24,805 nt of DNA from a virus. This document shows positions 4,371-18,849 of this stretch, piece by piece. How positions within the stretch are numbered: position 1 is the stretch's first letter; every line of letters begins with the position of its first letter. A program made the position numbers and the translations under genes. The stretch is taken from IMG/VR virus record IMGVR_UViG_3300030102_000211, positions 1 through 24,805 of that record; one strand, written 5' to 3'. The notes below the pieces were generated by a model that was given only the letters and a program-made list of their open reading frames with translations, did not search any database and had not been told where the DNA came from.

Positions 4371-6701
4371 ATGGGCGCAAATTATACAAGACAGTCCACG
4401 TATGCTGATGGCGATACTATAAATGCTGCTGATACCAACAATGAGTTTGACCAGCTACTAGCTGCGTTTGCGGCAAGTACAGGACATACACACGATGGTA
4501 CGACAGGAGAAGGTGGGCCAATATCTGCATTGGTCTCTAATGCTATTACCTTTGGCACAGGAGCAGACACAGATATTGCAGTAACCTTTGATGCAAATAG
4601 TAATGACGGTGTAGTCACTTGGAAGGAAGACGAAGATTACTTTGAGTTTAGTGACGACATATTACTAGCAACCACAGAAAAAGTGCAATTTCGTGACACT
4701 GCAATTCATATAAGTTCAAGCACAGACGGGCAACTGGATATTGTAGCAGACAATGAAGTACAGATTGCTGCAACAACGATAGATATTAATGGTAACGTTG
4801 ACATATCTGGTACGCTTACAATTGGTAGCGCAGGTATATCTGAAGCAGAGTTAGAGATACTGGATGGTGCTACGGTCACCACCACTGAATTGAACATAAT
4901 AGATGGCGACACAACCGCATCCTCTACAACAGTAGTAGATGCCGACCGTGTTGTGATGAATGATGATGGCACAATGAAACAGGTGGCGGTTACTGACCTT
5001 GCCGCCTATTTTGATGACGAAATTACAGCAATGCCTAATCTGACATCTGTTGGTACTTTAACAACATTGACTGTAGATAACATCGTCATCAACGGTACGA
5101 ACATAGGACATACCTCTGATACGGACGCCATAGCAATTGCGTCTGATGGTGATGTTACATTTTCTCAAGACGTGGTGATTACAGGAGACCTGACTGTTTC
5201 TGGTGATGATATCACTATGGGTACGAACACTGCAGGTAATCTTCTTATCGCAGATGGTACAAACTTTAATTCTGTAGCAGTAGGAAGTTTATCTGAGATA
5301 AGCACAGTTGCTAACGACGATGTATTTCTTGCTGTAGATACGTCTGGTGGTGGCCTTAAAAAGATTACAAGAAGTGCGATTGTATCTGGATTAGCTACAT
5401 CAGGTGCGATATCAAACGTGGTTGAGGATAGTACTCCGCAGTTGGGCGGCGACCTCGATATGAATGGTCAGGATATTGTTACCACATCTAATGCAGACAT
5501 TGACCTTGCTCCTAATGGCACAGGTAAGGTTGTAGTTAAAGGTAACACTAATCCGGGTACAGTTGTTTTTAATTGTGAGAGTAATAGTCATGGTCAAACA
5601 GTTAAATCACAACCACACTCTGCTTCAGTTACAAACGTATTGACTCTTCCGCCGGGGGGTGACCAAGAGATTGTTGGTACGACTGCCACTCAAACACTTA
5701 CAAATAAAACACTTACTACACCTGTTGTAAATGCTGGCGCACAGTTAAAGAATGGTGCAACAAGTGCTGGCTTTTTAGAGTTTTTTGAAGATAGTGACAA
5801 CGGCACAAACAAAGTTACACTAATCGGTCCTGCATCTACAGCAGATGTTACTGTGACACTTCCTAGTTCTGCAGGTACGGTGGCACTTACGTCCGACGTA
5901 ATTGGTAACGTATCTGAGGATTCTACACCTCAACTTGGCGGTGACTTAGATGTTAATGGTAACTCTATTGTTTCTGCCTCTAATGGTAATATAAGCATTA
6001 CACCAAATGGTTCTGGTAAAGTTATTCTTGATGGTTTGTCTCATCCAACAGCAGATGGTTCTGCTGGGCAGGTTCTAAAAACAGACGGAAGTGGCAATTT
6101 ATCTTTTGCTACCGTGGCATCAGACCTGTCAGAGGATAGCTCACCGCAACTTGGTGGTAATCTTGATGTTAATGGAAACTCTATTACTTCTGCTAGTAAT
6201 GGAAATGTGGAAATAGCACCAAACGGAACAGGTGATGTTCATCTTACTACTGATACAGTAAGGGTTGGTGATTTAAATACAAATGCCGTAATAACAACAA
6301 ATGGCACAGGCGATTTAACATTAAGCACAAATAGCGGAACTAACTCTGGAACTATTCTCATAGCTGATGGTTCAAATGCTGATATTACAATAGACCCAAA
6401 TGGCACTGGCAATATTCTTATAGGTAACTTTGAGTTTGATGCAGACCAGAGTGTAGGCTCTGGGCAAGATAACTATGTGCTGACCTATGACAACAGCACT
6501 GGTCATATCTCTCTGGAAGCAGCGGCTGCGGCTGGTGCGACAGGTGGTGGCGGTGATGAAATATTTTATGAGAACGGTCAGAACGTCACGACAAACTACA
6601 CAATCACAAACGGTAAAAATGCCATGAGTGCTGGCCCGATAACAATAGACAGCGGTGTAACTGTAACCGTTGGCTCTGGTGAAACTTGGACGGTGGTTTA
6701 A
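4371..6701 (+). CDS. Long tail fibre protein with internal repeats
   Basis: A 776-residue fibrous protein that starts directly after the nozzle stop (GAAGG upstream). The N-terminus (TRQSTYADGDTINAADTNNEFDQL, then a STGHTHDGTTGEGGPI segment) is the standard head-binding start of many phage fibres. The body is a chain of short beta strands rich in G, N, D, S and T, as in triple-beta-helix fibres, with the LEILDGATVTTTELNIIDG motif near residue 160. Three copies of a 41-residue unit beginning (S/V)EDSTPQLGG(D/N)LD start at residues about 351, 515 and 587. 'LTNKTLTTPVVN' near residue 440 is a common fibre linker. The C-terminus (NGQNVTTNYTITNGKNAMSA, ending GSGETWTVV) is a tip module shared, from memory, by many marine phage fibres. 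Its role is host receptor binding. Confidence 0.88.
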   Translation: MGANYTRQSTYADGDTINAADTNNEFDQLLAAFAASTGHTHDGTTGEGGPISALVSNAITFGTGADTDIAVTFDANSNDGVVTWKEDEDYFEFSDDILLATTEKVQFRDTAIHISSSTDGQLDIVADNEVQIAATTIDINGNVDISGTLTIGSAGISEAELEILDGATVTTTELNIIDGDTTASSTTVVDADRVVMNDDGTMKQVAVTDLAAYFDDEITAMPNLTSVGTLTTLTVDNIVINGTNIGHTSDTDAIAIASDGDVTFSQDVVITGDLTVSGDDITMGTNTAGNLLIADGTNFNSVAVGSLSEISTVANDDVFLAVDTSGGGLKKITRSAIVSGLATSGAISNVVEDSTPQLGGDLDMNGQDIVTTSNADIDLAPNGTGKVVVKGNTNPGTVVFNCESNSHGQTVKSQPHSASVTNVLTLPPGGDQEIVGTTATQTLTNKTLTTPVVNAGAQLKNGATSAGFLEFFEDSDNGTNKVTLIGPASTADVTVTLPSSAGTVALTSDVIGNVSEDSTPQLGGDLDVNGNSIVSASNGNISITPNGSGKVILDGLSHPTADGSAGQVLKTDGSGNLSFATVASDLSEDSSPQLGGNLDVNGNSITSASNGNVEIAPNGTGDVHLTTDTVRVGDLNTNAVITTNGTGDLTLSTNSGTNSGTILIADGSNADITIDPNGTGNILIGNFEFDADQSVGSGQDNYVLTYDNSTGHISLEAAAAAGATGGGGDEIFYENGQNVTTNYTITNGKNAMSAGPITIDSGVTVTVGSGETWTVV
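5421..6251 (+). repeat. Three copies of a 41-residue repeat in the tail fibre
   Basis: Copies lie at about 5421-5543, 5913-6035 and 6129-6251. All encode EDS(T/S)PQLGG(D/N)LD(M/V)NG, then a (S/T)SN(A/G) turn, then PNG(T/S)G. Copies 2 and 3 are closest to each other and are separated by only about 93 bp; copy 1 is about 370 bp upstream. The repeats are conserved in protein and only partly in DNA, so they are old duplications. Confidence 0.85.
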
Positions 6702-11574: not shown

Positions 11575-13815
11575 ATGGGTGTAGGTGCAGCATTAGCTTT
11601 GGGTCTTATTCAAGGTTTCACTAGGAACATAGAAAAAGAACAACAAAGCAGACAACTAGACCGTGATACATTACGTAATGCAAATAATTTAATGCTTACT
11701 GCTGCGACACAAGGTAAGTTGCATCCTCAAAATGCAGCCGTTATAGGTGCTGCAATTAAAGACGCTCGTGGTGAGTTGGATGCTAAAGAAAGAATTGATA
11801 TATTTGGCACACGCACAGAGCCGATTAATTTTGATATTACGGAACTTGCACCGCTCTTAAAGTACAATGACCCCAATGCTAAAAAAGCTGATGACCAATT
11901 TAAAACAATATTTAAGGTGGGTGGCGACGAGTTTGGTTTGATGTCTAACTTCGTGGAAAGTCCTAATAGCAATTCAGCAAGAGTAGCACTAGCAGAAATT
12001 GGTTCTAATATGACCAACCGTGATTTTACGAATATGATTGCAAACAATCAGGAAATGTATGAAAGAATACACGGTGTAGCCACGTCAGCCATTAAGGTAA
12101 TAAACGGCGCATTTCAAAAAGCTAAATTGCAAGCAACAGAGGGAGCAACGTTTTCAGAACCTACGTTTAATGACCGTGGTCTTCAACCTTTTTTAGACCT
12201 TGGCACAAAAATGTACAACCTGCCAAACCTTACCCAAATAAAAAACGCTTCTACCAAAGAGGCTTTTCAAGAGATTACAGGGGAACAAATTGATTCTGTT
12301 GTACAAACAGGATTAGGTGATTTTGGTATTAAGCTAGATACAGCAGAAAAAAAACAAGCGATAGTAAAGATAGCTAACCAAATGAAAAAGGGGTCAGATG
12401 AAATAGTGCAATTTCTTACGGATACCTTTTTTGAAGATGCTGCAGAATTTGTACCAGAAGATAAAATAGTTTTAGTGGATGGTATGATTAAACTTGGCGC
12501 AGAGTTTGAAAAATTAGGTAATATAACTGCGTTAGACCCTGATATTGGTCTTCGCAGACTTGATATAGATAAAGCCGCAGAATTTTATAATGCCATAGAA
12601 AGAAATGCAGGGGGTCCAGAAAGCTCTCTTGCACAGCAAATTTACATACTTGCACCTTATATGTCAGGTTCAAAAAAAGAGGGCGGCGGTGTAATAGGTT
12701 TTGGAAATACAACTACCGGTATGACAAGACAAACGTACGTTTTAAAACAAACAAGTGGTCAGTTCAAATCGTTTGGAGAAATAGAAGCAGCACGTAATGC
12801 TATAGAATTAACAAATGATACGCTGACAGTTTTTCGTCAAAAACGAGCAGAATTAGATGAACCACTTGCTTACAGTGAGCTTAAAAAAGCTGTGAAATTT
12901 GTATTTGGTGGTGAGGGTTTTATTGCTTCTGCTGTGAAAGATTTAGGTTTTACAGGCATATATGAAGGTAACACCAACAAAGACAGAACACTACGTGAGG
13001 GTGAAAAGTACGTTGATGAAGAATACGTAAAATCTTTAAATGCTAACGTAGAAAAAATAGGTCAAGAAAAGGGTCAAACATACGCTGAGTTAGAAGCTCT
13101 ACGTGTCACACTGGCTTTCCAAATGGCACGTGCGGCTGACCCATCAGGACGTTTATCTAACCAAGATATTGAACAGCAAATGGTCAAACTAGGCACAGCT
13201 TTTGATACACAAAGCATGGCTTTAGCTAAGATTGACGAGATATCAAGAGAGTTTAAAGTCACACAAGATAGACTAGACATTTTAGTGAAATACGGAAAAG
13301 GCACGGACATCATCGACCTTAAAGGTCAGGCAATTATTGATGCTGCCATAGCTGTAAATCATTTAAAGATGGAACGTGAACGAATGAACTATCTAGGTAT
13401 GAATGTTGGTGTTCGTACACAATCTTACGCTGAAATGGACCGCACACCATCAAGTCAGTATCAAGGGGCGTTTATCGTTCTCAATGCAGCAGGTCTTCCT
13501 GTTAGAAAAGACAATAAAAACATATTGGTTGACCAAAACGGAAGCGTTCTTTCTCCTGACCAACTCGTACCTATTGCTGAAGAACCTTCTGAAGTGACTT
13601 TACCTGACGGTAAAAAATTAGAAGTTGAACCAAAGGCAGAAGAAAAGCCAAAGCCAGATGACCCACCCCCACCAGCAGAGGGTGCGCTGGATGCTACAAA
13701 AGAAGAAACAACAGGTGGCAACAATTCTACTGGATGGACTTTAAAAGGTAGACAAGGAAAATGGAAGTACGATAGTAACACACAAACATTCGTACCTTTT
13801 CAACAAGCAAGCTAG
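11575..13815 (+). CDS. Large putative internal virion protein, 746 residues
   Basis: The start lies 1 bp after the preceding stop. After a short hydrophobic opening (GVGAALALGLIQGF) the protein is mostly helical and soluble, without a membrane segment or recognised enzyme motif. A proline- and acid-rich linker (about residues 670-702, KAEEKPKPDDPPPPAEG) leads to a small basic, aromatic C-terminal module (GWTLKGRQGKWKYDSNTQTF) that looks like a separate binding element. Its size and its place before the giant protein correspond to T7 gp15 (747 residues in T7), an ejection protein. I cannot show homology by eye; the assignment rests on order, length and composition. The sequence includes many adenine-rich Lys and Gln codons like its neighbours, so there is no sign of transfer. 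Confidence 0.62.
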   Translation: MGVGAALALGLIQGFTRNIEKEQQSRQLDRDTLRNANNLMLTAATQGKLHPQNAAVIGAAIKDARGELDAKERIDIFGTRTEPINFDITELAPLLKYNDPNAKKADDQFKTIFKVGGDEFGLMSNFVESPNSNSARVALAEIGSNMTNRDFTNMIANNQEMYERIHGVATSAIKVINGAFQKAKLQATEGATFSEPTFNDRGLQPFLDLGTKMYNLPNLTQIKNASTKEAFQEITGEQIDSVVQTGLGDFGIKLDTAEKKQAIVKIANQMKKGSDEIVQFLTDTFFEDAAEFVPEDKIVLVDGMIKLGAEFEKLGNITALDPDIGLRRLDIDKAAEFYNAIERNAGGPESSLAQQIYILAPYMSGSKKEGGGVIGFGNTTTGMTRQTYVLKQTSGQFKSFGEIEAARNAIELTNDTLTVFRQKRAELDEPLAYSELKKAVKFVFGGEGFIASAVKDLGFTGIYEGNTNKDRTLREGEKYVDEEYVKSLNANVEKIGQEKGQTYAELEALRVTLAFQMARAADPSGRLSNQDIEQQMVKLGTAFDTQSMALAKIDEISREFKVTQDRLDILVKYGKGTDIIDLKGQAIIDAAIAVNHLKMERERMNYLGMNVGVRTQSYAEMDRTPSSQYQGAFIVLNAAGLPVRKDNKNILVDQNGSVLSPDQLVPIAEEPSEVTLPDGKKLEVEPKAEEKPKPDDPPPPAEGALDATKEETTGGNNSTGWTLKGRQGKWKYDSNTQTFVPFQQAS

Positions 13816-13828
13816 ATAGGATATACTC

Positions 13829-16800
13829 GTGGCTGAAATGATTCGTCAACCTACTGCAGGATTTGAAACTGACCCCGCACTAGGACAGATTGCACAGGAA
13901 ATGGTCAGCACCACTGGTGCGCCTGTTCCTAAATTTACTGACATCCTATACGGCGATGTTACACAGATAGGCGGTGAAGAGATACCGCAAGTTACAATTG
14001 AGGCAGCAAGAAAAAACCCTAACTCCGAACAGGCACAGTTTATTCGTGACCAGATTGATTTTCAAACCGCTATGCAGCAGTCTCAATCTCGTGGCGTACG
14101 AATGGCAGGCACGGTTGTTGACCCTCAAACAGGGATAGTAACTCCCGGTATTCCAAAAGAGTTCGAAGGTAGGCTAACAGAAAAACAAGAAGAAGAGTTA
14201 ACAGAGTACGGTGGTCGTAGCCTTCGTCTGCAACAGGCTCTTGCCCCTTACATACAGGACAAACGTGTTCGACAAATCATGGCTGACATATACGGAACAG
14301 GTCAGTGGACTGTAGAAACAGCACGTGAGACAAATCAGTTTGCTAGTGACGTAGGCGGAACAGTTGTAAATGCTCTGTATTATACGCTTATGATGGGTAC
14401 GGCTGCAGTGGATGCTGCGTTCGATGAAAATAGAGAGTACAAAGAAGTTTGGGAAACTGACTATAAAAAGGACGCTGTAGAAACTCTTGCACGTTGGAAA
14501 CAATTCATTGAAACAAACGTTGGTACTACAGACCACGCTAGGTCTGTAAATAAACTTGTCAAGGAAGAGTTTATTAAGAGACACGGGCAACTAGAATACG
14601 ACAAACTTACTAAGTTACAGATAGGAGATGCCCCTGCTGTTGAGGGGCAACTAATACCTGATGACCTTGGTCAGATTCTTCTTGACTTAGGCACGAGTGA
14701 GTTGAGTTTGCCTGAACAGGTATTGAAGCTGTTGTACGAAACTGCTCCCGTCGCTGCTCCTGTTGCTGTGATGCACATAGGGTCAGGTAATAAAAAGCTA
14801 AAGAAGGTTGCAGATGCTGCCGAAGTTATGCCTGCGTTGAAGGGCATGGACCCTGTGATGGCGTATCGTATGCTTCGCCTTACCGAATCGAAAACCATGT
14901 TCAGCAGGGGTGTTTCTAAAGTTCTTAACAAAGTAGGAGATACCCTAGGCTATAGAGGTTCTATTGGAAACGTGCTTGAGGTTCGCGGATTCAAAGCTGC
15001 CACTAAAAAACTAGACGATGAGATTACATCCGTAAGAACAGAACTTGACAACGCAAAGATTGGTGGTGCAAAAGACGCTGAATTAAAACGTTTACAGGTA
15101 CAACTTGACTCCCTGATGGGTCGTCGTAATCGATTGCGTGTAAAGGGGGGCTTCTTTCTCAAGAATCCATACGCCTTTACATTTGCAGTTGACGAATCGA
15201 TTATTGCTACAGGGCAAGTAATTGGTACGAATCTCGCTGAACAGTTTGGATACGATAAAGATTTGGGCGGTTTGTTTGGTACGCTTAGTTTTGCGTTTCT
15301 TGGTAGACCTGCTGTTAAGCTTCCCGGTAAAACACTTAGTGCAGTAGATAAAGTAGCATTTGGTGGAAGAGGTAGTCAGATTGGTGTTGACATGATTCGT
15401 CACATCGAGGACATGGCAAAGATTGTACCTATCATTAAAGACCGTCCTGAACTTGTAAAAGGGTTCTTACGTTCTTCACAGTTTGATTTTATAGAAGCTG
15501 AGTTAAATAGAAAATTATTACCATCAGAAATTGCATCATTTCGTTCTGTAGCTGACATCATGAAAAACCTACCTGATGACCAACGCGATACAGTGTTTAA
15601 TTCTATGGTAGACTACGTTGCCCTGAAGGGACGTTTGGTAAACTCGTATGATGAAGCTGACCGTGCGAGAGCAGACGAACTTCTTACCATGACCTTCGGA
15701 CAAATTTCTGGACTAGCCCCACTACAAGCGTTGGAAGTTACATCTCTAGGTCGCATGAGAGGACAGAGTTTTAATGATGCTATTAGCGCACAGCTTCAAC
15801 AGGAACAAGCACTGGTTGCTTTAGACAGAAACATTTCACAGCTTAGAAAGATGTTTGAAGGTAAGTCAGGTGTTGATAGTGAAGATACTATCTTTGCACA
15901 GCAGTTTATAGATAACATGGAACGGGCTGCAGACCAGCAGCGCATACAGTTAGGTGAACGCAAGCGTGAGTATCTTGGTTTGCTCCGTGAGTACAAAGAC
16001 AAGGTGTTAAGCAACCCCTTGGAAGATGTAGACAGTGATGACATTGTTAAACAGCTAGTCGATATGGAGTTGAGTCTGACTCCCGGTGCAATAGGAAATA
16101 CAGAAGTAGAACGTCAAATCCTGACGCAAACGATAGAGGATGTACAGGTTGCAGCAGCAAAACGATTTAAAAGTTTACAAGGACTTGTGGGTACGCCTGC
16201 TCACCGTCGTCTCTTAGGTCAAACTACAGAACTTCTGTACGATGCTCACATTTCTACTCAATATGCAAAAGGTCGCCAAGCGTATAAAATTGCATCTGAG
16301 AAGATTGGAGACAAGCGACTAGACATTGCTCCGTTTGTAGAACAGTTCGTACAAACATCTGAGGATATCTCACAGAGAGATTTAGGTGGTTTGTTTGCAG
16401 CGGATGCAGACTTCTTTACTGGTCGTTCTGGTAAGATGGCGTTACGTGCGTTCAATGATATGGCTACACGTTCGTTAATTAAGAACTTAGAACTGGATGA
16501 GGAAGACTTGTCTGAACTGGTCGAGTACGTTTCTACACGCAAACTTGCAGATGGTAGCGCAAATCCCGACTTTATCGAGGATGTAAACCCTGTCAAGTTG
16601 GCCCTACACTTCTCTAAGAAAGAGGGTGCGGAGTTTGCACCGTTCGAAGCAGATGCCTTTGAAGTAGATACAATCTATCGTCACTTCAGAAACAAGGGAG
16701 AGTATATCCGCAATGACGCACAGGCAAAACCGTACAAGGATGCTGCACGAGAGATAAACACTCTGATGATGGCAGACAAAGACATTGGCCCTGCTATCAA

Positions 16801-18307
16801 CGAAGCACGTAAAACGTACAAAGCTGAAGTGTTTGATATTGCTCGTCCGGGTACGTATGGTGATAAGCTGGACAAAGCTACAGACAATCCTAGAAAGGAA
16901 CGCATTGAAGCTGGCGGATATCAACGTGCATACAAGATAGGCCAGTATCCTGAAGAATGGCACAAGGATTTTGCAAAAAATATTGGTAACGCAATAGATG
17001 GTAAAGGCGTTCTTCCTGCAGATATACAACTCAGGATGGATGAGATTCAGCAGTTTTGGGCTGACGACTTTATAGACGGGAAGTTTGTTTTTGATTTGAC
17101 TACAGAAGCAGGCAGAGCAAAATTCTCAGGTCTTCAAGACATGATACGTGCAAACTTACACGAACACTGGATGACATCTCGCTTGGATAAAGCAGCAGGT
17201 GACATGATTATGATTGCGGATAGCCCAACAGCAAAACTGTCAGGGTACGATTTTACTGTTACTGAACGCATAAAAGCACTAGAAGAAGTTCTGAACGTAC
17301 AGGTAATTGAAGAAGTAGGGGACAGCCCTAGTTCGTTTAACTTGTTAGACATGATGGAAATCATGAGTGAACAGAACGAACTTGAAAACTTGATGAAGGT
17401 AAACAAGAAGCTGCAAGGTGATTGGAATAAGTTCACAACAAATATAAACAATAGAATTGCAGACGAGGGTGATGCTGCTGTTGACCAAATCAACCTTGAC
17501 CAGAGGGTTATACGAAAGCTGGAAGAAGCAGCAATAACAACTGACCCACAACAGTTCTACAAAACGTACGTTGAAAACCAAAACGTAATTAAACTGCAAA
17601 GTCTTCGTCGGAATTACTTATCTAATTTGGATGCAGATGTGGATATTGAAAAAGCTACACAAGAGTTTGATGATAGTGTTCGTTATCTAATATTTAACGG
17701 TTTGTTAGAAACAGCGCAGTCTGCACCTCTTGCAAAACGAACTTTTTCTGGTAACAGTGGCAAGGCTACTATGACTGTCATGAATAATCCAGAGGTTCTT
17801 CTAAAGCAGCTTGACAGTGCAAACGTACAAGAGATACTTGAATTAGTTGGCATGGATGCGGACCACGTACGTTTTATGTACGACATGACTGACATGGCTA
17901 TGAGAGCAGGTGGTGTGGCTGCAATACCGTTTGCACCAAAGGGTCAAATCAGAGGTATCAGCCCTAACGAAATCATCAGCCGTTCGTTTAACATTGCACG
18001 GGGTATGGTTAGCCCTACCTACGTTGCAGCAGAGTTTGCGTTTCGTCTGATGCAGCAGAACGGTATGTCCGGTCTGCAACTTGCAGCAGGAAACAAACAG
18101 GCTGCAGAAATCATGGTAAAAATGATGGACATACCAGAAGATATATCAGAAGATGATATTCGCACACTAATGTCTATCGCTCAAACATTCATCGTACAAG
18201 AGGGATATAGACGCGGTATAACCTTTGCTACAGACTTCTTACCCTCAGAAGATATATCTGCAGCACAAATGCAAATAGGAACAGAGACCAATGAAAACGT
18301 ACAATAA
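13829..18307 (+). CDS. Giant internal virion protein (T7 gp16-like position), about 1490 residues
   Basis: The largest gene of the window. The start is GTG at 13829, with TAGG (13817-13820) 8 bp before it; ATG at 13838 is the alternative. Length and place match the giant ejection protein of T7-like phages (T7 gp16, 1318 residues), which spans the host envelope during DNA entry. Visible parts are a hydrophobic segment near residues 171-197 (VGGTVVNALYYTLMMGTAAV), another near 305-317 (TAPVAAPVAVMHI), a coiled coil near 389-435 (KLDDEITSVRTELDNA, then ELKRLQVQLDSLM), and a C-terminal conserved-looking block (ISPNEIISRSFNIARGMVSP, AAEFAFRLMQQNGM). I do not see the N-terminal lytic transglycosylase motifs that T7 gp16 carries. 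The last 17 bp overlap the next gene. Confidence 0.7.
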   Translation: MAEMIRQPTAGFETDPALGQIAQEMVSTTGAPVPKFTDILYGDVTQIGGEEIPQVTIEAARKNPNSEQAQFIRDQIDFQTAMQQSQSRGVRMAGTVVDPQTGIVTPGIPKEFEGRLTEKQEEELTEYGGRSLRLQQALAPYIQDKRVRQIMADIYGTGQWTVETARETNQFASDVGGTVVNALYYTLMMGTAAVDAAFDENREYKEVWETDYKKDAVETLARWKQFIETNVGTTDHARSVNKLVKEEFIKRHGQLEYDKLTKLQIGDAPAVEGQLIPDDLGQILLDLGTSELSLPEQVLKLLYETAPVAAPVAVMHIGSGNKKLKKVADAAEVMPALKGMDPVMAYRMLRLTESKTMFSRGVSKVLNKVGDTLGYRGSIGNVLEVRGFKAATKKLDDEITSVRTELDNAKIGGAKDAELKRLQVQLDSLMGRRNRLRVKGGFFLKNPYAFTFAVDESIIATGQVIGTNLAEQFGYDKDLGGLFGTLSFAFLGRPAVKLPGKTLSAVDKVAFGGRGSQIGVDMIRHIEDMAKIVPIIKDRPELVKGFLRSSQFDFIEAELNRKLLPSEIASFRSVADIMKNLPDDQRDTVFNSMVDYVALKGRLVNSYDEADRARADELLTMTFGQISGLAPLQALEVTSLGRMRGQSFNDAISAQLQQEQALVALDRNISQLRKMFEGKSGVDSEDTIFAQQFIDNMERAADQQRIQLGERKREYLGLLREYKDKVLSNPLEDVDSDDIVKQLVDMELSLTPGAIGNTEVERQILTQTIEDVQVAAAKRFKSLQGLVGTPAHRRLLGQTTELLYDAHISTQYAKGRQAYKIASEKIGDKRLDIAPFVEQFVQTSEDISQRDLGGLFAADADFFTGRSGKMALRAFNDMATRSLIKNLELDEEDLSELVEYVSTRKLADGSANPDFIEDVNPVKLALHFSKKEGAEFAPFEADAFEVDTIYRHFRNKGEYIRNDAQAKPYKDAAREINTLMMADKDIGPAINEARKTYKAEVFDIARPGTYGDKLDKATDNPRKERIEAGGYQRAYKIGQYPEEWHKDFAKNIGNAIDGKGVLPADIQLRMDEIQQFWADDFIDGKFVFDLTTEAGRAKFSGLQDMIRANLHEHWMTSRLDKAAGDMIMIADSPTAKLSGYDFTVTERIKALEEVLNVQVIEEVGDSPSSFNLLDMMEIMSEQNELENLMKVNKKLQGDWNKFTTNINNRIADEGDAAVDQINLDQRVIRKLEEAAITTDPQQFYKTYVENQNVIKLQSLRRNYLSNLDADVDIEKATQEFDDSVRYLIFNGLLETAQSAPLAKRTFSGNSGKATMTVMNNPEVLLKQLDSANVQEILELVGMDADHVRFMYDMTDMAMRAGGVAAIPFAPKGQIRGISPNEIISRSFNIARGMVSPTYVAAEFAFRLMQQNGMSGLQLAAGNKQAAEIMVKMMDIPEDISEDDIRTLMSIAQTFIVQEGYRRGITFATDFLPSEDISAAQMQIGTETNENVQ

Positions 18308-18647
18308 TGGCCCACGCAAAGGCATGATGTATGGTGGCATGACTCGTCGTAAGCCAATGATGTACGGCGGCATGACTACTAAAAAGAAAACCCGCAGGAA
18401 AGCCTACGGGGGTGGGATGATGTCTGCGACACAGCCACAGCAAAATCAAATGAGTAACATGACACCTAATCAGATGAACAACATGCAAACACAAATGATG
18501 CAAACACCTAAATTAAGAATGGCAGGGGGTGGCAACACAGAGTTTGGCATGTTAAGTGTAAAAGCAGGGATTGACAAGAACCCAAAGCCAACAAAGGCAG
18601 ATAGAATAGCTGGGGCTACAATGAAGAAATCTAAACGTATGTCCTAG
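18291..18647 (+). CDS. Small Met/Gly/Tyr-repeat basic protein (MMYGGM)
   Basis: A 118-residue protein, the last gene of the plus-strand run, starting within the giant gene (17 bp overlap; AGGA at 18277-18280 is 10 bp upstream). The N-terminal third holds repeated units: MMYGGMTRRKP, MMYGGMTTKKK, and a degenerate KAYGGGMM. The centre is Gln/Asn/Met-rich low complexity (NQMSNMTPNQMNNMQTQMMQ). The end is basic (KNPKPTKADRIAGATMKKSK). There is no membrane segment. I recall similar 'MMYGG' proteins in uncultured marine phages, none with a function. Composition suggests a disordered, sticky, nucleic-acid- or protein-binding virion component. Its 3' end overlaps the last minus-strand gene tail to tail. 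Confidence 0.75.
   Translation: MKTYNNGPRKGMMYGGMTRRKPMMYGGMTTKKKTRRKAYGGGMMSATQPQQNQMSNMTPNQMNNMQTQMMQTPKLRMAGGGNTEFGMLSVKAGIDKNPKPTKADRIAGATMKKSKRMS
18324..18389 (+). repeat. Two tandem 33-bp units encoding MMYGGM
   Basis: Units at 18324-18356 and 18357-18389 encode MMYGGMT followed by four basic or polar residues. The first 24 bp of the two units differ at only a few, mostly third-codon, positions; the ends differ. A partial third copy (AYGGGMM) follows near 18400-18420. Confidence 0.85.
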
Positions 18648-18849
18648 ACTTATCCATTACCTCATCACCGACTGTACGCAAGTACCGAATTAGGGATGCT
18701 ACACTGTGCGAACCTTCGTATTCTGGCATCCCTAAATTCATTTCGCGTTCAAAATCGTCAGGGTTGACGCCATCCCACAGTATCTCTACGTTGCCACTGG
18801 TAAGCAGGTTTGCTTCCAGAGAAAATAACTTAGCCTTTTTTTGTGCCAT
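18631..18849 (-). CDS. Hypothetical 72-residue protein
   Basis: The last gene of the minus-strand run. It starts inside the end of the nuclease gene (20 bp overlap) and its stop lies within the last gene of the plus strand. The protein is acidic: NVEILWDGVNPDDFEREMNLGMPEYEG, then a helix (HSVASLIRYLRTVGDEVMDK). There is no known motif and no membrane segment. The ribosome site is weak. The chain of overlaps and the clean codon usage support it as a real gene, but no function is recognised. It contains the inverted repeat at 18690-18735. Confidence 0.6.
   Translation of the reverse strand: MAQKKAKLFSLEANLLTSGNVEILWDGVNPDDFEREMNLGMPEYEGSHSVASLIRYLRTVGDEVMDKSRTYV
18690..18735. other. 10-bp inverted repeat near the convergent gene junction
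   Basis: TTAGGGATGC (18690-18699) and GCATCCCTAA (18726-18735) are perfect inverted copies separated by 26 bp, with one further G-U pair possible inside. The pair lies about 43 bp past the plus-strand stop. No run of T follows on either strand, so this is not a standard intrinsic terminator, though a hairpin could form in RNA from both strands. Confidence 0.6.

Follow-up and report, generated by a model that had tools for sequence, protein, structure and literature searches.

In phage T4, the capsid targeting sequence is N-terminal, with a prohead-protease cleavage motif that follows the rule [LI]xE. The T4 internal proteins IPI, IPII, and IPIII are small and basic, alike in an N-terminal segment and divergent after it, and are not highly conserved among related phages (PMC9026906); they are delivered by injection, with IPI, and probably IPIII, acting against defenses of the host (PMC9391042). 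In phage T7, the 88-aa protein gp6.7 bridges the dodecameric portal and the core, is ejected, and is resolved mostly as loops; gp7.3 sits in the tail channel (PMC11784390).

The DNA considered here (the window) is the whole 24,805-nt stretch of virus record IMGVR_UViG_3300030102_000211. Judged by gene content, the window phage is HMO-2011-like: in the B12-dependent RNR it shares 68% identity with Puniceispirillum phage HMO-2011, and a 576-aa protein is 56% identical, over 86% of its length, to a “putative tail structure protein” of HTVC033P. It is probably an uncultured marine phage, going by its named relatives (HMO-2011, HTVC phages, and a SAR11 cell). Its rightward gene set ends in an ATG-initiated ORF encoding 118 aa (Table 1), which was confirmed as real, as were its two MMYGGM motifs. 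The product contains 19 Met, 15 Lys, and 15 Gly, and has a net charge of +20; the median for the family described below is +18. A Gln/Asn/Met-rich center, noticed in an earlier reading made from the sequence only, lies at about residues 45–76. The basic tail noticed in the same reading does have Lys and Arg at its end, but most of it is a conserved 25-residue module, followed by KKSKR. Neither this module nor its exchange among relatives, both described below, had been noticed. The module, at residues 85–109, is near-invariant (FGMLSVKAGID.NP.PT.ADRIAGA) and is placed after a Met-x-Gly-Gly hinge.

Table 1. Features of the MMYGGM gene and its two neighbors, in window coordinates.
Feature	Position	Strand	Basis or remark
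Upstream 1492-aa ORF, an ejection protein in the sequence-only reading	13829..18307	+	
Whole gene, ending the rightward (virion) gene set	18291..18647	+	ORF; 226 relatives in IMG/VR
Overlap (17 nt) with 3' end of the upstream 1492-aa ORF	18291..18307	+	Coordinates
N-terminal block, residues 1–44, basic, nearly without acidic residues; proposed anchor	18291..18422	+	
MMYGGM unit 1, residues 12–17	18324..18341	+	Sequence, family alignment
MMYGGM unit 2, residues 23–28, preceded by RKP	18357..18374	+	Sequence, family alignment
Third YGG, degenerate (AYGGGMM), out of register, residues 38–44	18402..18422	+	
Gln/Asn/Met-rich linker, residues 45–76, variable	18423..18518	+	pN 0.319; family alignment
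Hinge (Met-Ala-Gly-Gly-Gly) at the 5' edge of the exchanged segment	18519..18533	+	12 chosen module-swapped pairs
C-terminal module FGMLSVKAGIDKNPKPTKADRIAGA, residues 85–109, exchangeable	18543..18617	+	Module-profile relatives, column conservation, swaps
Basic end TMKKSKRMS	18618..18644	+	Sequence
Convergent 72-aa gene, conserved companion, overlapping the 3' end of the gene by 17 nt	18631..18849	-	

The MMYGGM motifs had been described as a tandem DNA array of 33-bp units, perhaps of variable copy number. Neither description holds. There are just two units, 33 bp apart and alike at 23 of 33 bases; the 33 bases after the second, where the third YGG lies out of register, match at only 7–8 positions, and Tandem Repeats Finder at its lowest score setting lists no array in the MMYGGM region. 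Among 100 unique family proteins, 98 have two units and two have one, counting variants within the first 34 residues and excluding the divergent or partial L141, L148, and L162; in its strict form, MMYGG occurs twice in 87 proteins, once in nine, and never in four. A variable tandem-repeat protein is contradicted by these unit counts, the 23/33 base identity, and the blank Tandem Repeats Finder result. The converse possibility, that the MMYGG unit is not conserved among relatives, is likewise refuted by the family alignment and the unit counts.

The family was collected from IMG/VR in two scans. The first, with loci selected by motif, gave 226 relatives (270 stretches); the second, run via the convergent neighbor gene to avoid motif-based choice, gave 241 (263 stretches), although its contigs are partly identical (in several cases) to those of the first. 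In each scan the best 80 loci, ranked by similarity, were kept, as they were for two module profiles discussed below (at least 510 and 454 relatives), so that some of the conservation within the seed patterns follows from the way the loci were chosen; conservation is also seen outside the seeds. By regular expression, the MMYGG block opens the protein in 80 of 81 loci, L050 having the block with a different start. In the neighbor-gene scan, 77 of 80 loci carry the protein, some with altered motifs and two (L141 and L148) divergent or partial. The remaining three are L105 and L151, which run for just 159 and 27 bases past the neighbor gene, and L152, the sole one with enough sequence, where 2,500 bases past that gene showed no recognizable MMYGG-type protein. 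Five cultured relatives are without the protein, four giving no match and one a weak match crossing three stop codons. The 100 unique proteins, from all loci of the scans, range from 70 to 173 aa (median 108), and only six contain Asp or Glu within the first 44 residues.

Both the sequence and the position of the gene are conserved. Summed over all pairs of 54 sequences, dN/dS is 0.066 for residues 1–27 and 0.095 for residues 1–44, with pS of 0.59–0.64 and pN of 0.09–0.10 in the N-block; with dN/dS low and synonymous sites strongly diverged, it is the protein that is kept and not the DNA. In all 95 family proteins for which this could be tested, the start codon lies between −26 and +16 nt from the stop codon of an ORF of at least 150 codons, and 51 overlap it. 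In the window, the 17-nt overlap with the upstream ORF likely represents translational coupling.

The C-terminal end differs among relatives in a particular way. Module classes were assigned by regular expressions of our own making, which eight of the 100 unique proteins did not fit. The window's class, SVKAGI, is found in 28, followed by FAADG (21), the EF-like FPDLNKDGK (17, one of them with an additional class), an EF loop with Glu as its last residue (10), RNKMG (9), FAxLA (4), and SDxD (3). An RNR tree was built by a quick method from 53 of 78 rows, those alike in both RNR and module having been removed (rows L087–L098 came from the neighbor-gene scan, the others from the motif scan). At least 21 module changes are needed on this tree, whereas every one of 1000 shuffles required more (mean 30.3, minimum 24); inheritance of the module thus plays a part. 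It also changes over short distances: 46 pairs, not independent of each other, have RNRs at least 97% identical, and 21 of these differ in module (19 swaps between named modules and two losses). Four different modules occur within a single group (SH-aLRT 97) made up of the window, L088, L091, and L097. In L035 (5001–5252), the family protein has apparently lost its module, while its relative L034, with a 99.7% identical RNR, keeps FAADG.

Borders of the exchanged segment were located in 12 module-swapped pairs, hand-picked mostly from the 97% RNR list; the module alignments are gapped and overstate likeness. DNA identity in these pairs is 87–96% over the N-terminal part and linker and 83–99% over the 200 nt downstream of the gene, and the 150 nt upstream are almost identical in three (at least 149/150) and diverged in nine. 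L024 and L008, for example, match at 149/150 positions upstream, 229/246 in the N-terminal part and linker, and 189/200 downstream, around different modules; for L003 and L025, the corresponding figures are 150/150, 232/246, and 166/200. Compared to L087, L089, and L091, whose modules differ from its own, the window is 96% identical in the first 81 nt of the gene and 94–96% in the 200 nt downstream, and just 55–63% alike in the 300 nt upstream; the end of the long upstream ORF has diverged as well in all eight loci compared with the window. Likeness of the flanks combined with difference of the modules indicates that exchange has been recent, with the hinge on one side and the gene's end on the other as its borders.

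The same modules occur outside the family. In IMG/VR, an SVKAGI profile found 473 stretches (454 relatives) and an EF profile at least 510 relatives, MMYGG-family members included in both. The proteins carrying them vary in length from some 55 to over 800 residues; many are rich in Lys and Gly and have other modules, and their contigs reach 136 kb. Outside the family, the conserved stretch is sharp-edged, about 21 residues for EF (56 thinned rows) and 27 for SVKAGI (25 rows); within a few residues beyond these edges, mean column identity drops to about 0.1, Gly-Gly excepted. The MMYGG family shares four 22-residue strings and two 27-residue strings, without any amino-acid difference, with proteins outside it. 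Four-fold degenerate sites in the two module sets nevertheless agree between the family and other phages at only 0.34 and 0.33, against a base-composition expectation of 0.36; within sets, agreement is higher (0.39–0.51), as among nearer relatives. Identical residues with four-fold sites at chance indicate that the modules are held by selection at the protein level, and not by recent copying into the family.

Module distribution is centered on phages. A search of 84,980 bacterial and archaeal genomes with the SVKAGI profile gave two loci, one in an Aureispira MAG contig and the other in a contig from a SAR11 single cell, where a portal gene lies four genes upstream. In cultured Pelagibacter phage HTVC027P, the EF-module protein gp44 directly follows the portal protein gp43; in L180, L189, L228, L313, L183, and L341, a portal (phrog_1216) or head-tail adaptor (phrog_332) gene is found about 0–3 genes upstream, and in L228 a major head protein gene also lies two genes downstream. 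Among 20 neighbors of module proteins, hand-picked with large genes favored, 10 matched head, tail, or other structural PHROGs, one a regulator, four families of unknown function only, and five nothing. In L191 (2246–2908), one protein combines an EF module with a region containing the string SDSIPARLSDGEFV, which recurs in other module proteins; this region matches tape-measure PHROGs. The SAR11 single-cell contig L341 has four consecutive small basic proteins downstream of its portal gene (4857–6157), one of them DUF6321.

Small basic proteins are also found elsewhere in these genomes. The window itself encodes one of 86 aa (1308–1568, + strand) that matches phrog_14910 (E 3e-35), and L349 has an 86-aa ORF of similar sequence (14992–15249). 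Four of six longer family contigs (G002, G003, G004, and G006) have further small basic proteins between the coat and tail genes; in G001 and G005, the filter used listed none there. L355 encodes, also between coat and tail genes, an 83-aa protein of Lys-rich MA[KR]GG repeats (12890–13138), without Pfam or PHROG match. A lysis gene, as the position of the window gene might suggest, was considered and rejected: no hydrophobic stretch is seen by reading, and there is a lysozyme gene elsewhere in related contig G004.

Of the two neighbors, the convergent gene was found by tblastn in 81 of 81 loci. The 1492-aa ORF is 19–35% identical in those relatives where tblastn found it and was not found in a number of others; it had no match at E 1e-3 in 50,697 phage records, and its product no PHROG match. 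The genes on the other side are kept in relatives while this ORF diverges. The family gene sits behind a relative of the giant ORF where one is recognizable. Compared with the window, L002 is 91% identical in RNR, 97% in the 72-aa neighbor, and only 25% in the giant ORF; it thus shares the RNR side and not the giant ORF, and no co-adaptation with the giant protein is seen. With respect to the window's nearest relatives, these identities indicate that the gene goes with the RNR side.

Standard annotation finds little in the protein itself. It had no match in PHROGs or Pfam, and two in NCBIfam, both far below the cut-off. Searches of the 50,697 phage records by tblastn yielded nothing useful for the whole protein, for which the low-complexity filter weakens the search, or for the SVKAGI module. 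Against the PDB, the family profile matched none of 177,635 distinct sequences at E 10, and the SVKAGI module profile gave no useful match. An AlphaFold2 model (alignment of 54 sequences) is mostly loop and of low confidence (mean pLDDT 57.6, pTM 0.14), with short helices at residues 59–69 and 102–109; this prediction supports a disordered protein with short helices, in agreement with the disorder proposed from the sequence. In the open-licence literature, no relevant paper was found for the motif strings, none for DUF6321 with phage, and nothing useful for DUF6496 or DUF5872 (an algal-virus paper only); nor was virion proteomics of a relative found, HMO-2011-type phages included (proteomics terms were not found in the text of PMC6918029), or proteomic or structural evidence for any protein with these modules in a virion.

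We consider the protein to be, with a probability of about 0.45, a disordered, basic accessory protein of the virion, consisting of a constant anchor and an exchangeable module. The N-block, with its two fixed MMYGG motifs and Lys/Arg stretch, would be the anchor, its most likely attachment being packaged DNA or a component of the virion, and the C-terminal end a slot for one module from a pool common to many phages. The protein would be translated jointly with the giant protein that comes last among the virion genes, enter the particle, and be delivered on infection, after which the module may act on a target; the EF-type modules of relatives would bind calcium. This reading draws on purifying selection on residues 1–44, module exchange and its cassette borders, predicted disorder, module identity with sharp edges and four-fold sites at chance, the position of the start by a long-ORF stop in 95 of 95 proteins, and the portal and head neighbors. 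Counted against it are the negative search for virion evidence, the partial agreement of module labels with the RNR tree, the divergence of the end of the upstream ORF as well, the L002 identities that place the gene with the RNR side, the 10 of 20 picked neighbors without a structural match, and the five cultured relatives without the protein. The sequence-only reading also proposed a virion part made with the ejection proteins, and gene position and the portal and head genes near modules elsewhere make this likely.

Other roles for such a protein can be imagined. It could be a structural adaptor like T7 gp6.7 or gp7.3, connecting the portal or tail to the ejection core and ejected with it, with modules that only tune assembly; this we think rather unlikely. 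Its size, the low-confidence model (mostly loop, with helices at 59–69 and 102–109), the start at the end of a long upstream ORF, and the portal genes near modules in other phages would all fit, but a pure assembly adaptor would not readily account for swaps between phages with near-identical RNR and N-terminal part, and the family profile has no PDB match up to E 10. The same short-distance exchange resembles that of accessory host-interaction genes, and could point instead to a protein outside the virion, made late or directed at the host (counter-defense or takeover), with modules as interchangeable effectors. That the gene goes with the RNR side relative to the window's nearest relatives is consistent with this; against it stand the 95/95 testable starts at long-ORF ends and, in several other phages, portal or head genes close to the modules, and we regard it as improbable.

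Condensation of nucleic acid was suggested in the sequence-only reading, and the protein might then be packaged with the DNA in the manner of a protamine. The charge (+20 per 118 residues, family median +18) and nearly acid-free first 44 residues are as would be expected; such a protein needs charge, however, and not two MMYGG motifs kept at dN/dS near 0.07, nor has it any need of exchangeable near-invariant modules, so that this role has a low probability. At the DNA level, the N-terminal part and the neighboring gene could conceivably serve mainly as homology arms around a protein with little function, given DNA identities of 87–96% and 83–99% (N-terminal part and downstream 200 nt) in the 12 chosen pairs. 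The strongly diverged synonymous sites of the N-block beside a conserved protein (pS 0.59–0.64, pN 0.09–0.10) make this unlikely, and with modules kept as protein at chance four-fold agreement between the family and other phages, we give it hardly any weight.

Beyond the accessory-protein reading itself, it may be, more tentatively, that phages of quite different kinds share a pool of portable 20–30-residue, Gly-Gly-bordered modules plugged into small basic virion proteins, exchanged as cassettes between close relatives at the window locus, and making up a combinatorial code for interacting with host-cell or particle partners that are widely conserved. If so, this would be a widespread class of phage proteins missed by annotation, the window protein having no PHROG or Pfam match and NCBIfam matches far below cut-off, and the locus would be a concrete place where closely related phages swap functional tails. 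The modules, in which 22–27 residues stay the same in very different phages while the rest of the protein varies, would then be short near-invariant peptides usable to fish for binding partners directly.

Among known families, DUF6321, DUF6496, DUF5872 (this one just below cut-off), and PHROGs 17747, 14910, and 23735, all of unknown function, are likewise small basic modules, found in the module proteins themselves or in genes beside them; their sequences are different, and none matches the window protein. The EF-FPD module class of relatives, FPDLNKDGKITQADILKGRGV, resembles dockerin type I and EF-hand loops, in that 32 of its 35 segments have D1, D5, G6, and D12 (the three exceptions were taken as off-target pattern matches; D1, D5, and G6 are in the search seed, D12 is not). 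The best PDB matches of its profile are dockerins (E 0.005); Dockerin_1 was found in seven of 54 family members (best E 0.004), and in two outside proteins at 16.6 and 13.8 bits, below the Pfam cut-off of 22.9. By reading, however, the module is a single loop and not the dockerin loop pair, and the window protein itself carries a different module, SVKAGI.

Like T7 gp6.7, the window protein is small; gp6.7 is resolved mostly as loops, and the low-confidence model of the window protein is mostly loop with short helices. The family profile matched no chain in the PDB, in a set that may or may not include those of gp6.7 and gp7.3; in addition, the family gene follows a giant ORF and not the portal gene, and its C-terminus is modular. 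As with the T4 internal proteins, members of the family are small and basic, with a shared N-terminus and a diverging remainder. They differ from these in phage type and in swapping short, near-invariant modules; no sequence relation was found, and the [LI]xE motif occurs in the first 60 residues of only one of 100 family proteins. By analogy, the best reading is of a protein that would act in the manner of the T4 internal proteins or of T7 gp6.7 and gp7.3, as a member of neither group.
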